Assembly (NCBI RefSeq): GCF_003651185.1 | Contig: NZ_RCDC01000004.1 | Span: 124,001-188,000, forward strand | Direction of reading: 5' to 3' | DNA: 64,000 bases | Origin: Stenotrophomonas rhizophila | GTDB taxonomy: Bacteria > Pseudomonadota > Gammaproteobacteria > Xanthomonadales > Xanthomonadaceae | Shown here: positions 50,403 to 60,556 of the stretch, piece after piece | Layout of the letters: each line of letters begins with the position of its first letter | Position numbering within the stretch: the stretch's first letter is position 1 | The notes under the pieces: model-generated | Databases searched by the model: none | What the model was told of the DNA's origin: nothing | The model's input: the letters and a program-made list of their open reading frames with translations, nothing else | Translations under genes and position numbers: made by a program

Positions 50403-51764
50403 TCAGGCCGGGCCGCTGCGCGCGTGCGACACCGGCACCTGGTCGGACTGCGTCGCGGTGGCGATGGTCTCCTTCAAGGGCACCTCGCCCACGCCCAGGG
50501 CCCGTTCGATCACCAACGCGGTGCCTTGCCCGTGCAACAGCGCCTGCAGCCGGCCGAACTCACCGCACCACAGGGTTTCGATGTCGCGGTCGCGACGGCG
50601 ATCGCGATCGGTCGCCAGGGCCACGGCCCGGACCTGCAGGCGCCCGCCGTCGGCACGGCCGCCCACCTCAACGCCATAGCCCGGGGTGGCTACCTTCTTG
50701 AGGACCACCGCGCCAGTGTCCTGCCATGCGGTGGCCATGCCTTCGCGCACCTCGTAGCCGAGGCTGGCCAGCCCGTCCAGTACGGCCTGGCGCCGGGAAA
50801 CTGCCGCCAGCGCCTGCTGGTGGCTGGCAAGGGCGGTGTCGCACTGCAGGGTGAGTTCGGTGAGCAGTGACAGCGCGGTGTCGGTACTGCAGGCGGCCGC
50901 CCGGGTCAGCAACAGCGCATGCTCCGCCGGGTCCACGGCAGCCAGCCTGCCGGCCACATCCTGCAGCCGTTCCAGCTGCGTGCGGCGCTGGGCGAACGCG
51001 GCCGAGGCGGCGGCCAGGTCCAGTACTAGGCTGTCCAGCAGCAGGTTGCGCCGTTGCGGGGCGGTTTCCTGCTCGGCCTTGTGCAGCGCCTCCAGGTAGG
51101 GTGCTGCGACTGCCTCGCCCTGCAGCAACTGCAGTTCGGCGATATGGCGGTCCACGCGCAGCAGGCGCGCCTCGCGCTCGGGGTCGGCGGGCTGCCGGGC
51201 GGCCCAGTCGGCCAGCGTGGGGGTGAGGGTGGTGGTCTGCAATGCGGCGGCCAACGCGCGCTGGTCATCGCTCAGTGTTGCCTGCGCGTCCGGCGGCGAC
51301 AGGAGCGCGAAGGCACGGGCCAGCACCGCCTCTGCGTCAGTACCGGGGTGACCGTCGGCCAGTGCCCGCAGCGCGTGCAGCAGGCCGGCGTCTGCATCAA
51401 CGGATCGGTCCTGCAGGGTGTTGAGCACGGCGGCGGCGTTGTCGCGCTGCCGCCGCTGCTGCTGGCGGCCTGCGGCAGCGCGGTCGATGGCGCGCGCCTC
51501 GCGGTCGCGGGTGTCGGCCTGCAGGAAGGCGGTTTCCGCCTCGATCAGCAGCGCATACCGCGTGTTGTCGCTGTCCGCCAACAGCGCCTGCAGCGCCTGG
51601 CGGCGTGCCATTACCGCGGCCACCGCCGATGCGTCGCTCTCGCCCACGCGCTCACACTGGGCCTGCCAGCGCGCCACCGCCTGGTCCAGCCGGTGCAGCA
51701 TCGCCTCACGCAGGGCCAGCAGTTCTTCGGCAGTCACGATGCGGACGACTTTGGGACCACTCAT
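50403..51764 (-). CDS. Helical protein of the accessory cassette (MSGPKVV family)
   Basis: A 453-residue protein without a recognised fold family. The N-terminus MSGPKVVRIVTAEELLALREAML looks like a conserved leader; the middle (about 25-330) is nearly all Ala/Leu/Arg/Gln-rich helix with probable coiled coil. The C-terminal part (about 345-440) looks globular: LGYEVREGMATAWQDTGAVVLKKVATPGYGVEVGG, then ETLWCGEFGRLQALL. No signal peptide or membrane helix. It overlaps the helicase-nuclease gene by four bases (ATGA), so the two are translated together. A scaffold or sensor role for the large partner is only a guess. Confidence 0.75.
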   Translation of the reverse strand: MSGPKVVRIVTAEELLALREAMLHRLDQAVARWQAQCERVGESDASAVAAVMARRQALQALLADSDNTRYALLIEAETAFLQADTRDREARAIDRAAAGRQQQRRQRDNAAAVLNTLQDRSVDADAGLLHALRALADGHPGTDAEAVLARAFALLSPPDAQATLSDDQRALAAALQTTTLTPTLADWAARQPADPEREARLLRVDRHIAELQLLQGEAVAAPYLEALHKAEQETAPQRRNLLLDSLVLDLAAASAAFAQRRTQLERLQDVAGRLAAVDPAEHALLLTRAAACSTDTALSLLTELTLQCDTALASHQQALAAVSRRQAVLDGLASLGYEVREGMATAWQDTGAVVLKKVATPGYGVEVGGRADGGRLQVRAVALATDRDRRRDRDIETLWCGEFGRLQALLHGQGTALVIERALGVGEVPLKETIATATQSDQVPVSHARSGPA

Positions 51765-58727: not shown

Positions 58728-60556
58728 CCGCGCGCCAGGTTGAGGACGTTGGCATCCACCGCAACGATGGTGAACTGCTGGCCGGGCTGCGCGTCCTGGT
58801 CGAACAGGGCACGCGCCAGCGGGTTGAGCAGGTGCGCCTCGAGCTGGTTGCGGATGCCGCGCCCGCCGTTGGACAGGTCCTTCAGGCAGAGCGACCGCAA
58901 CGCATTGCGGGCCGGCGCGGCCAGGGTCACGTGCAACTGCTGGGCCTGCAGGTCGGCCAGGGTTGCGTCGACCATCTGGTCGAAGATCTGCACGGCGACC
59001 TCCTCGCGGATGAAATCGAACACGATGATGTTCTCGCCGATCCGGTTGAGGATCTCCGGCCGGTTCAGGACCAGCTTGAAGTGCCGGTCGATTTCGTCGT
59101 GCACCTTGCTCTGCACCTGCTCGAAGGGCTCGCCGGGCAACACGTTCGCCACGCGCTCGCCATGCTCGCCCTGGCGGTAGATGCCCAGGTTGGAGGTGAA
59201 CACGATCAGCGCTTCGGAGAAATACACGCGGTCGCCACGCCCGGACGTAAGCACGCCGTCGTCGAGGATCTGCAGGAACTTGTCGAGGATGCGCGGATGG
59301 GCCTTCTCGATCTCATCGAACAGGACCACGCTGAACGGTTTCTCGCGGATGGCGTTGGTCAGTTCGCCGCCCACGTCGTAGCCGACGTAGCCGGGCGGGG
59401 CGCCGATCAGCCGCTGGTCGGCATGCTCGGCGCTGAATTCGGACATGTCGAACCGGATGTAGGCGCTTTCGTCGCCGAACAGCAGGCTCGTGACGGTTTT
59501 GGCCAGCTCGGTCTTGCCCACGCCGGTCGGGCCGGCCAGGAATGCCACGCCGCGCGGCCGGTTGCCCTTGCGGCTTGCACCCACGCCGGTCATGGCGCGC
59601 TTAACGATGTCCAGCATGTGGGTCACCGCATGGTGCTGGCCCTTGACCCGCTGGTGGACGAACGCATCGCCCAGGCGGATGCGCTGCCGGTCGATGCGCA
59701 GCCAGGGGTCTTCGGTGACGCCGACCTTGTAGCGGCGCACGGCGTCGCCGATCTGGTCCACCGCCACGCCTTCGACCCGGGCCAGCTGGGCGATGGCACT
59801 GAGGTCCAGCAACAGCAGCCCCTCGGTGCTCTGCACAAAGGCGTCCACCGCCTGCGCGGTCGCCTCGGCGCTGGCATCCTGGGCACCGGCCAGGCCCTTG
59901 AGCAGGGCCGGGGCCAGTGCGCGCCGGGTGAGCTGGTCCGGCTTGGCCACCGGAACGTGGCGGATGCGCGGGTTGCCGACCAGCAGCCAGTCGGGCAGGT
60001 CACCTTCTTTCTCCACCACCCAGAGCACCGTGTTGAAGAACGGCTTGCGCTGTACGCCGCCCGGTCGGCTGCGGGCCTGGTGGGAGAGCACCAGGGCTTG
60101 GGTGAACAGCTGGTGTTCGGCCGCGCTGAGGGCGTCGCTGCGCACCGCCAGGCGCGAAGCGAAATCGATGATCAAGGCCACCGGCTCGCCCTGGCGGACG
60201 ACCAGCGCTTGGAGCGTCGCACTGAGCAGGTCGATACCGGCAGGCGCGGCGCCGTCCACCGGGGTCAGTCCCAGCGATTGCAGCTGGGCGATGCCGCTGG
60301 CGCGATCGGTGCCGGGGCGTTCCAGGGCGCGGAAACCGGCCAACGGGTCCCAGCCCAGCACCTGCGCGTAGCCTTGGTCGAGCAGGGTGTTGCACAGGGT
60401 CTGGTTGAAGCTCTGCGCGGTTACCGTGCCCGGCGCCACTTCGGCTGCCTGCAGGTCGCGGATGTTCCCTGAGAGCACGAACTGGCTCTTCAAGGGAAGG
60501 AAACGAACAAGATCGCGCTGCCAGCGCGGACCGTCAAACACATTCTTCCCTGACAT
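58724..60556 (-). CDS. ClpB-like AAA+ ATPase with degenerate N-terminal half
   Basis: 610 residues from the ATG at 60556 (MSGKNVFDGPRW); a second ATG seven codons upstream is possible. The N-terminal 300 residues look like an AAA module without a Walker A (FLPLKSQFVLSGNIRDL, VALIIDFASRLA). The C-terminal part is a ClpB/ClpA D2-type AAA+: Walker A LAGPTGVGKTELAK, pore loop GAPPGYVGYD, Walker B VVLFDEIEKAHP, sensor TSNLGIY and sensor-2 region NGGRGIRNQLE. The pore loop and ATPase site are intact, so it may thread or remodel proteins. First gene of the cassette, 48 bases after the MHYT-GGDEF-EAL stop with no promoter recognised between. Confidence 0.87.
   Translation of the reverse strand: MSGKNVFDGPRWQRDLVRFLPLKSQFVLSGNIRDLQAAEVAPGTVTAQSFNQTLCNTLLDQGYAQVLGWDPLAGFRALERPGTDRASGIAQLQSLGLTPVDGAAPAGIDLLSATLQALVVRQGEPVALIIDFASRLAVRSDALSAAEHQLFTQALVLSHQARSRPGGVQRKPFFNTVLWVVEKEGDLPDWLLVGNPRIRHVPVAKPDQLTRRALAPALLKGLAGAQDASAEATAQAVDAFVQSTEGLLLLDLSAIAQLARVEGVAVDQIGDAVRRYKVGVTEDPWLRIDRQRIRLGDAFVHQRVKGQHHAVTHMLDIVKRAMTGVGASRKGNRPRGVAFLAGPTGVGKTELAKTVTSLLFGDESAYIRFDMSEFSAEHADQRLIGAPPGYVGYDVGGELTNAIREKPFSVVLFDEIEKAHPRILDKFLQILDDGVLTSGRGDRVYFSEALIVFTSNLGIYRQGEHGERVANVLPGEPFEQVQSKVHDEIDRHFKLVLNRPEILNRIGENIIVFDFIREEVAVQIFDQMVDATLADLQAQQLHVTLAAPARNALRSLCLKDLSNGGRGIRNQLEAHLLNPLARALFDQDAQPGQQFTIVAVDANVLNLARG

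Follow-up and report, generated by a model that had tools for sequence, protein, structure and literature searches.

The question raised by a 64,000-nucleotide stretch of the Stenotrophomonas rhizophila genome (the window) is whether four adjacent minus-strand genes, encoding an AAA+ protein, a radical SAM protein, a fusion of a pseudokinase, a helicase and a nuclease, and a fourth protein, constitute a functional system, and, if they do, what kind of system it is. An earlier note on this DNA had proposed that the four genes form one coupled unit which may be an undescribed defence or stress system. The analysis described here upholds the coupling and, within the open-licence literature searched, the novelty of the composition, and it makes it somewhat more probable than the sum of the alternatives that the cassette is a single, horizontally moving, previously undescribed system directed against phages or plasmids. 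The case for defence is circumstantial, and it has to be set against the core status of a cassette gene reported in Pseudomonas aeruginosa.

The four genes as a unit

The AAA+ gene (58724-60577) encodes 617 amino acids, or 610 if translation begins at the ATG at 60556, the start adopted in the earlier note and the one that most homologues support. It is followed on the minus strand by an NrdG-like radical SAM gene (58068-58727; 219 amino acids), by the kinase-helicase-nuclease gene (51761-58063; 2100 amino acids), for which a longer reading frame starting at 58201 has no backing from homologues, and by the fourth gene, for a helical protein (50403-51764; 453 amino acids). Direct reading of the junctions reproduced those previously reported: a TTGA overlap at 58727-58724 between the AAA+ and radical SAM genes, the four bases GTCC between the radical SAM stop codon and the ATG of the large gene, and an ATGA overlap at 51764-51761 between the large and fourth genes.

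The co-occurrence of the genes in other genomes was evaluated with a GTDB scan that used two conserved stretches of the fourth protein, MSGPKVVR and GYEV[RH]EGM, and none of the other three genes. The scan produced 148 stretches, 129 of which were confirmed as relatives, and the best 80 of these 129 were kept, corresponding to 79 loci. All four genes were detected by tblastn in the same order and on the same strand in 76 of the 79 loci, which are distributed across several bacterial phyla; because the loci were fetched via the fourth protein alone, the retention of the set is more than would be expected by chance. Two loci (L047 and L065) are truncated by contig ends that fall within the cassette, and at a locus of Lysobacter soli (L078), a decayed cassette, all that is left is a C-terminal piece of the fourth gene (9824-10747; 55% identity over residues 208-431). 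Filamentous-phage-like genes and an ATPase lie near this remnant.

The close packing of the genes is also general. The spacing between the AAA+ and radical SAM genes ranges from -4 to +3 in 76 of 76 loci, that between the radical SAM and large genes from -20 to +67 (at most 30 in 75 of 76), and that between the large and fourth genes is exactly -4 in 70 of 78. Automatic gene calls had frame trouble in four loci (L059, L082, L083 and L094), the fourth gene of L073 runs off its contig, and in L086 the large gene is seemingly shortened, with a gap of 620 bases. A second anchor, the N-terminal region of the AAA+ protein, was searched for in 398 sampled genomes of the phylum and matched seven, four of them at an identity of at least 60%; three of these four carry the fourth protein according to a profile search, and the other (G572) holds a broken cassette (L198, 5483-11965) in which the AAA+ and radical SAM genes are present, the large gene is broken and ends near residue 1255, and the fourth gene is missing; downstream of it lies a recombinase-like open reading frame (ORF).

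The histories of the genes are likewise concordant. Trees of the four genes over 71 loci agree, with Spearman correlations of pairwise distances of 0.874-0.945, and 44 of the 53 strongly supported splits of the large-protein tree recur in the AAA+ tree. Ratios of nonsynonymous to synonymous substitution rates (dN/dS), computed against three relatives, lie between 0.069 and 0.264 over the four genes, the highest values belonging to the radical SAM or the fourth protein; they point to purifying selection and maintained function in all four genes. Near-fused junctions, conserved order and strand, and agreeing trees together sustain the proposal of a coupled unit.

The proteins and their relatives

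The large protein matches, in Pfam, Pkinase (3.1e-17), DUF4011 (3.3e-08), AAA_11 (4.9e-15), AAA_12 (1.1e-21) and the Vsr-like family MTES_1575 (3e-16), and it also contains Cys/His sites resembling zinc-binding sites. On the minus strand, the pseudokinase (residues 105-352) occupies 57008-57751, the DUF4011 match (residues 741-829) 55577-55843, the superfamily 1 (SF1) helicase (approximately residues 947-1930) 52274-55225, and the Vsr-like nuclease (residues 1982-2078) 51830-52120. Residues were counted in 75 aligned large proteins, with broken frames and sequences below 85% of full length excluded. The VAIK lysine is replaced by threonine in 73 of the 75, by serine in one and by glutamate in one, and is retained in none; the aspartate of DFG, which reads GFG in the window, is glycine in 72 and aspartate in one; the HRD aspartate is retained in 70. 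Because the VAIK lysine and the DFG aspartate have been lost across the family, the kinase domain is predicted to be catalytically dead, so that its designation as a pseudokinase, previously made from the window copy, extends to the family as a whole. The helicase retains its Walker A (GKS, 977-979) and Walker B (DE, 1636-1637) residues in all 75 proteins and the threonine and arginine of motif VI (TRAR, 1905-1908) in 74, and the nuclease residues D2009, E2025, D2027 and H2031 are retained in 74, 73, 72 and 72 of the 75.

The AAA+ protein matches AAA_2 (2.6e-45) and ClpB_D2-small (2.3e-06), and its ClpB-D2-like domain is active-looking by its motifs, since the GKT of Walker A and the DE of Walker B are present in 75 of 75 rows. 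The match to the NCBIfam ClpB model TIGR03346 reaches 256.6 bits, far below the cut-off of 1232.1, and covers the D2 part only, which places the protein outside ClpB proper; the ClpV score is lower still (201.4 bits). The N-terminal region of approximately 300 residues has no match in Pfam or among PDB sequences, and may be a degenerate AAA+ domain that lacks a Walker A motif. The radical SAM protein matches Fer4_12 (4.2e-21) and carries a CxxxCxxC motif at residues 30, 34 and 37, with the three cysteines present in 76 of 76 rows. It resembles NrdG (TIGR02491, 2.2e-18) at 66.7 bits, short of the cut-off of 126.1 and thus of membership, and no Pfam domain of a glycyl-radical enzyme partner is found among the four cassette proteins.

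The fourth protein has no family match in Pfam, PADLOC or NCBIfam. It begins with MSGPKVVR and has a conserved C-terminal region at approximately residues 320-431; MSGPK opens 77 of 77 fourth proteins, although the scan itself selected for MSGPK. It evolves fastest of the four, with a mean path of 1.93 in the gene trees as compared to 0.79 for the AAA+ protein. Searched alone against PDB sequences it has no match, a 60-row profile yields one meaningless match (E=0.039), and Pfam searches of 60 fourth proteins give scattered weak matches, to any one family in at most 4 of the 60. Homology to the coiled-coil proteins of two other loci, L199 and L201, is weakly hinted at by scores of 5-7 bits.

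The AAA+ family of the cassette is also represented at three loci that have no helicase-nuclease. In L016 (G258), a kinase-WD40 protein and the AAA+ protein (47%) are accompanied by a fourth-protein homologue that starts with MSGPK (48.5 bits), and other small genes lie between them. In L199 (G394, 2988-11699), a coiled-coil-like protein of 422 amino acids, the AAA+ protein (40%), a radical SAM protein (34%), a zinc-ribbon/FHA protein, a PP2C phosphatase and a kinase lie on one strand, a run which is possibly an undescribed phospho-signalling module; in L200 (G388), the AAA+ protein (36%) lies near an FHA protein. A profile built from the cassette pseudokinases scores 131.8 bits against the L016 kinase and 87.6 bits against the L199 kinase, and the match continues beyond the kinase domain to cover some of the region that follows, an extension which is significant by itself only in L016. 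The AVLTLY of the cassette corresponds to VVKIY and VILKFY in these kinases, which keep the lysine, HRD and DFG. Active-looking kinases thus occur in L016 and L199 without a helicase-nuclease, whereas the cassette combines a dead kinase with one; PP2C and FHA are present in L199, and FHA in L200, whereas the cassette has neither. In the presumed direction of change, from kinase to pseudokinase, the cassette kinase would have died and become fused to a helicase-nuclease once its phosphatase and FHA partners had dropped out, or without their ever having been part of the set.

The helicase-nuclease is akin to described defence proteins but, by the models tested, is not a member of Hhe, ProA or Mokosh. 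Among PADLOC models, the helicase-nuclease matches PDC-S37 (1.8e-146), Hhe (1.3e-59) and MkoA (2.3e-47). With Hhe, which is a single-gene system, it has in common the DUF4011 SF1 helicase and the C-terminal nuclease (NF042953, 8.3e-93 over residues 1536-2070), as the earlier note had recognized; the score of 311.9 bits lies below the cut-off of 2000, and the N-terminal half of the large protein is unmatched, so that the kinship stands and the assignment to the Hhe type does not. The closest models of the helicase-nuclease half are PDC-S37 and the anti-phage protein ProA (NF058533, 1.3e-153, residues 944-2086), and ProA membership was rejected in the same way (513.6 bits, cut-off 1500, first 640 or so model positions unmatched). 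Mokosh, which uses a nuclease partner of the PLD type and in its type I form carries a kinase, is related through the SF1 helicase of MkoA, but the MkoA models match only parts of the large protein (PDLC03920 best at residues 1629-1920, PDLC03921 at 951-1016), and no PLD domain is found by Pfam among the four cassette proteins. Fusions of SF1 helicases to MTES_1575 Vsr-like nucleases have been described as predicted conflict proteins in passages of PMC3710099; the large protein is such a fusion, and its helicase-nuclease half belongs to this known kind of conflict protein. The fusions in those passages carry HEPN, transglutaminase and wHTH domains, and no pseudokinase, AAA+ or radical SAM partner. 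Passages of Kaur et al. 2020 (PMC7159879) describe other conflict systems with inactive kinases, as well as a class whose effector is a radical SAM protein, and none of these passages shows the four-gene set. The statement that no named system has this composition agrees with the open-licence PubMed Central literature (preprints not covered), in which the set was not found described as a system.

Movement and genomic context

In the cassette tree, which was built with FastTree, carries local support only and drew warnings on long branches and letter composition, the copies of the window and of S. bentonitica fall within a well-supported Pseudomonas clade of 14 rows, 12 of them Pseudomonadales, and the copies of S. 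terrae and S. daejeonensis are separate from them. The fourth protein is present in 5 of the 61 genomes of the relatives sample (five orthologues aligned), and the same number of congeners carries the cassette: four hold copies at least 95% alike, all in the flhB region, and a fifth (G029) holds a copy 66% alike at another location. Five further congeners have only distant DUF4011 relatives (33-37%). Resistance-like ORFs and an IS3-type integrase flank the G029 copy (L008, 2067-4202 and 18706-19698); the former look like aminoglycoside and sulfonamide resistance genes, and these flanks suggest a mobile region.

The window cassette lies between a gene for an MHYT-GGDEF-EAL protein (60626-62779) with fliR beyond it on one side, and flhB, flhA and flhF on the other, flhA and flhF being presumed from their positions. 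Near relatives likewise have the EAL gene at this site. The flhB sites of 12 of 30 loci were compared, 8 of them without the cassette. In the cassette-free L097, L099, L100, L104 and L109 the EAL gene lies from 17 to approximately 240 bases from flhB; L103 and L112 have no EAL match within 1.5 kb of flhB; and in L105 (G002, 281-1454) the gap between EAL and flhB holds other DNA, including repeated short GC-rich sequences, so that this gap may be a place tolerant of insertion. Because the four flagellar copies whose junctions were compared share the same junctions, one insertion is likely. Because the window copy nests in the Pseudomonas clade and near relatives have the flagellar operon without the cassette, the window cassette is judged, from these comparisons, to have been acquired horizontally. 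No integrase was identified at the window insertion, no flanking repeats stand out at the cassette ends, the GC content of the cassette is raised only slightly, and a sigma70-like promoter for it was looked for and not found. An element of the form GG-N10-GC (GGAACGGTTCTTGCA, 50382-50396, minus strand), presumably sigma54-like, lies before flhB and downstream of the cassette and is retained on both sides of the comparison. The surroundings also include an ordinary chemotaxis cluster, with three methyl-accepting chemotaxis receptors (24652-34208) and two CheA-like genes (34463-36430 and 40838-42670). Elsewhere, 80% or more of the large protein is encoded on eight plasmid records, and one of these, a Rhizobium plasmid typed as conjugative, has all four genes annotated in a row.

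The association of cassettes with defence genes was evaluated in the flanks of 20 genomes (191 ORFs of at least 250 amino acids within approximately 10 kb on each side) and in control stretches of 20 kb at a distance (197 of 199 ORFs scanned; one region gave none). With E up to 1e-30, 48 and 55 PADLOC models were matched in the flank batches and 18 and 6 in the controls; several models can match one protein, and these numbers are therefore not gene counts. The flank matches listed include JetA, JetC and JetD of Wadjet, HerA, SIR2, DUF4297, E1-E2 and TmtA, as well as a BrxA model, methyltransferases and PDC-S15/S20, and the control matches include 17 reverse-transcriptase models, DndA/SspA, mad3 and RtcR, the last two of which match in flanks and controls alike. 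Ten flank proteins were examined singly: JetC adjoins the copies of Luteimonas aestuarii and Dechloromonas hortensis, and an MkoA-like helicase adjoins the Mesorhizobium copy.

A further link to defence comes from P. aeruginosa, in which a DUF4011/radical SAM pair constitutes the right-flank core genes, and pheS the left-flank gene, of the hotspot cDHS1 according to passages of Johnson et al. 2023 (PMC10250203), where the flank genes serve as markers, are assigned no function and appear with no mention of an AAA+ protein or pseudokinase. The pair is apparently this cassette: the copy of strain PA7 (L021) has all four genes, and its fourth gene, which ends near 2539655, faces pheS (at approximately 2516000) across some 23 kb. 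The PAO1 numbers PA2722-PA2725 or PA2725-PA2728 were set aside for the cassette as unproven; literature annotations disagree, naming PA2727 a DNA helicase or a histidine kinase, treating PA2727 and PA2728 as one gene in another strain, and making PA2722 a GFA protein.

Defence and its alternatives

The defence reading is favoured because of the kinship with Hhe, ProA and Mokosh, the transfer and patchiness of the cassette, the defence genes beside some copies and the position at the edge of cDHS1. If it is correct, recognition of an invader, or of intermediates of its replication, may fall to the fourth protein or to the zinc sites; the AAA+ ring, attached via the pseudokinase, would hold and then remodel the complex; the radical SAM enzyme may mature or license one partner through a radical modification; and the helicase, once triggered, would travel along DNA while the nuclease cuts. 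The pseudokinase would be a docking module inherited from an ancestral set for kinase/phosphatase signalling, whose surviving relatives include modules with active kinases. A more specific version, which can be offered only tentatively, is that a phospho-signalling set of AAA+, radical SAM, kinase and PP2C/FHA proteins was turned into an immunity complex of a new type that attacks DNA, in which the dead kinase was fused as the docking arm of the AAA+ protein and the NrdG-like enzyme licenses the MSGPK protein or the effector.

Several observations weigh against a defence role. Those steps of the mechanism that go beyond gene content are inferred. The window copy sits amid flagellar and chemotaxis genes, outside any defence island; 7 of the 10 flank proteins examined singly have no defence match, and with only three flank proteins placed at a locus, most flanks are without a placeable defence gene. 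Relatives of the fourth protein are encoded by none of 17 candidate viral contigs, and matches in phage records are confined to the AAA+ domain, with no AAA+ relative of full length among them. In the passages of PMC10250203, the cDHS1 flank genes lie beside the hotspot and not within it, and the DUF4011 gene is found in every P. aeruginosa isolate, as a core gene, a distribution that fits a resident or housekeeping function better than a defence gene of patchy occurrence.

This core status also counts for a rival which is improbable, though the likeliest of the alternatives, namely that the cassette is a machine for genome maintenance or stress, whose helicase-nuclease and AAA+ protein act on damaged DNA or on protein-DNA complexes that have become stuck, and whose transfer is that of a useful, dispensable repair trait. 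The stable flagellar-operon insertion in four congeners, the purifying selection and the ClpB-like AAA+ protein are in keeping with such a machine, whereas the patchiness elsewhere (the 5 of 61 congeners, and the 4 of 398 sampled species with the AAA+ N-terminal match of at least 60%), the proximity of the helicase-nuclease to defence models above all others and the rapid evolution of the fourth protein are not. Wadjet is an anti-plasmid system, and its presence near two copies, together with the many hosts that are plasmid-rich soil bacteria, gives some colour to a barrier against plasmids or conjugation and not against phages; two such neighbours are few, the cassette itself resides on megaplasmids, and this alternative is rather unlikely. 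Less probable again is a regulator of the phospho-signalling or secretion type, a degenerate kinase/PP2C/FHA/ClpB-like control set for which DNA activity would be secondary. A comparable set of four components operates in type VI secretion, and the related L199 has an active kinase, PP2C, FHA-zinc-ribbon, AAA+ and radical SAM proteins, but in the cassette the kinase is dead, PP2C and FHA are absent among the four proteins, the nuclease residues are retained, and the AAA+ protein is nearer to ClpB than to ClpV. The place between the GGDEF/EAL gene and flhB could by itself suggest a part in flagellar control, which was rejected and retains hardly any probability: it is contradicted by the distribution, as near relatives keep the operon without the cassette there and other genomes hold the cassette elsewhere, flhB being matched only in the flank of L017.

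If the favoured reading of the cassette as a mobile anti-phage or anti-plasmid system is correct, it would provide a function for the marker genes at the border of a major defence hotspot of P. aeruginosa, it would bring a pseudokinase and the chemistry of radical SAM enzymes into helicase-nuclease immunity, and it would show how a signalling module whose kinase is active could have become, step by step, a DNA effector.

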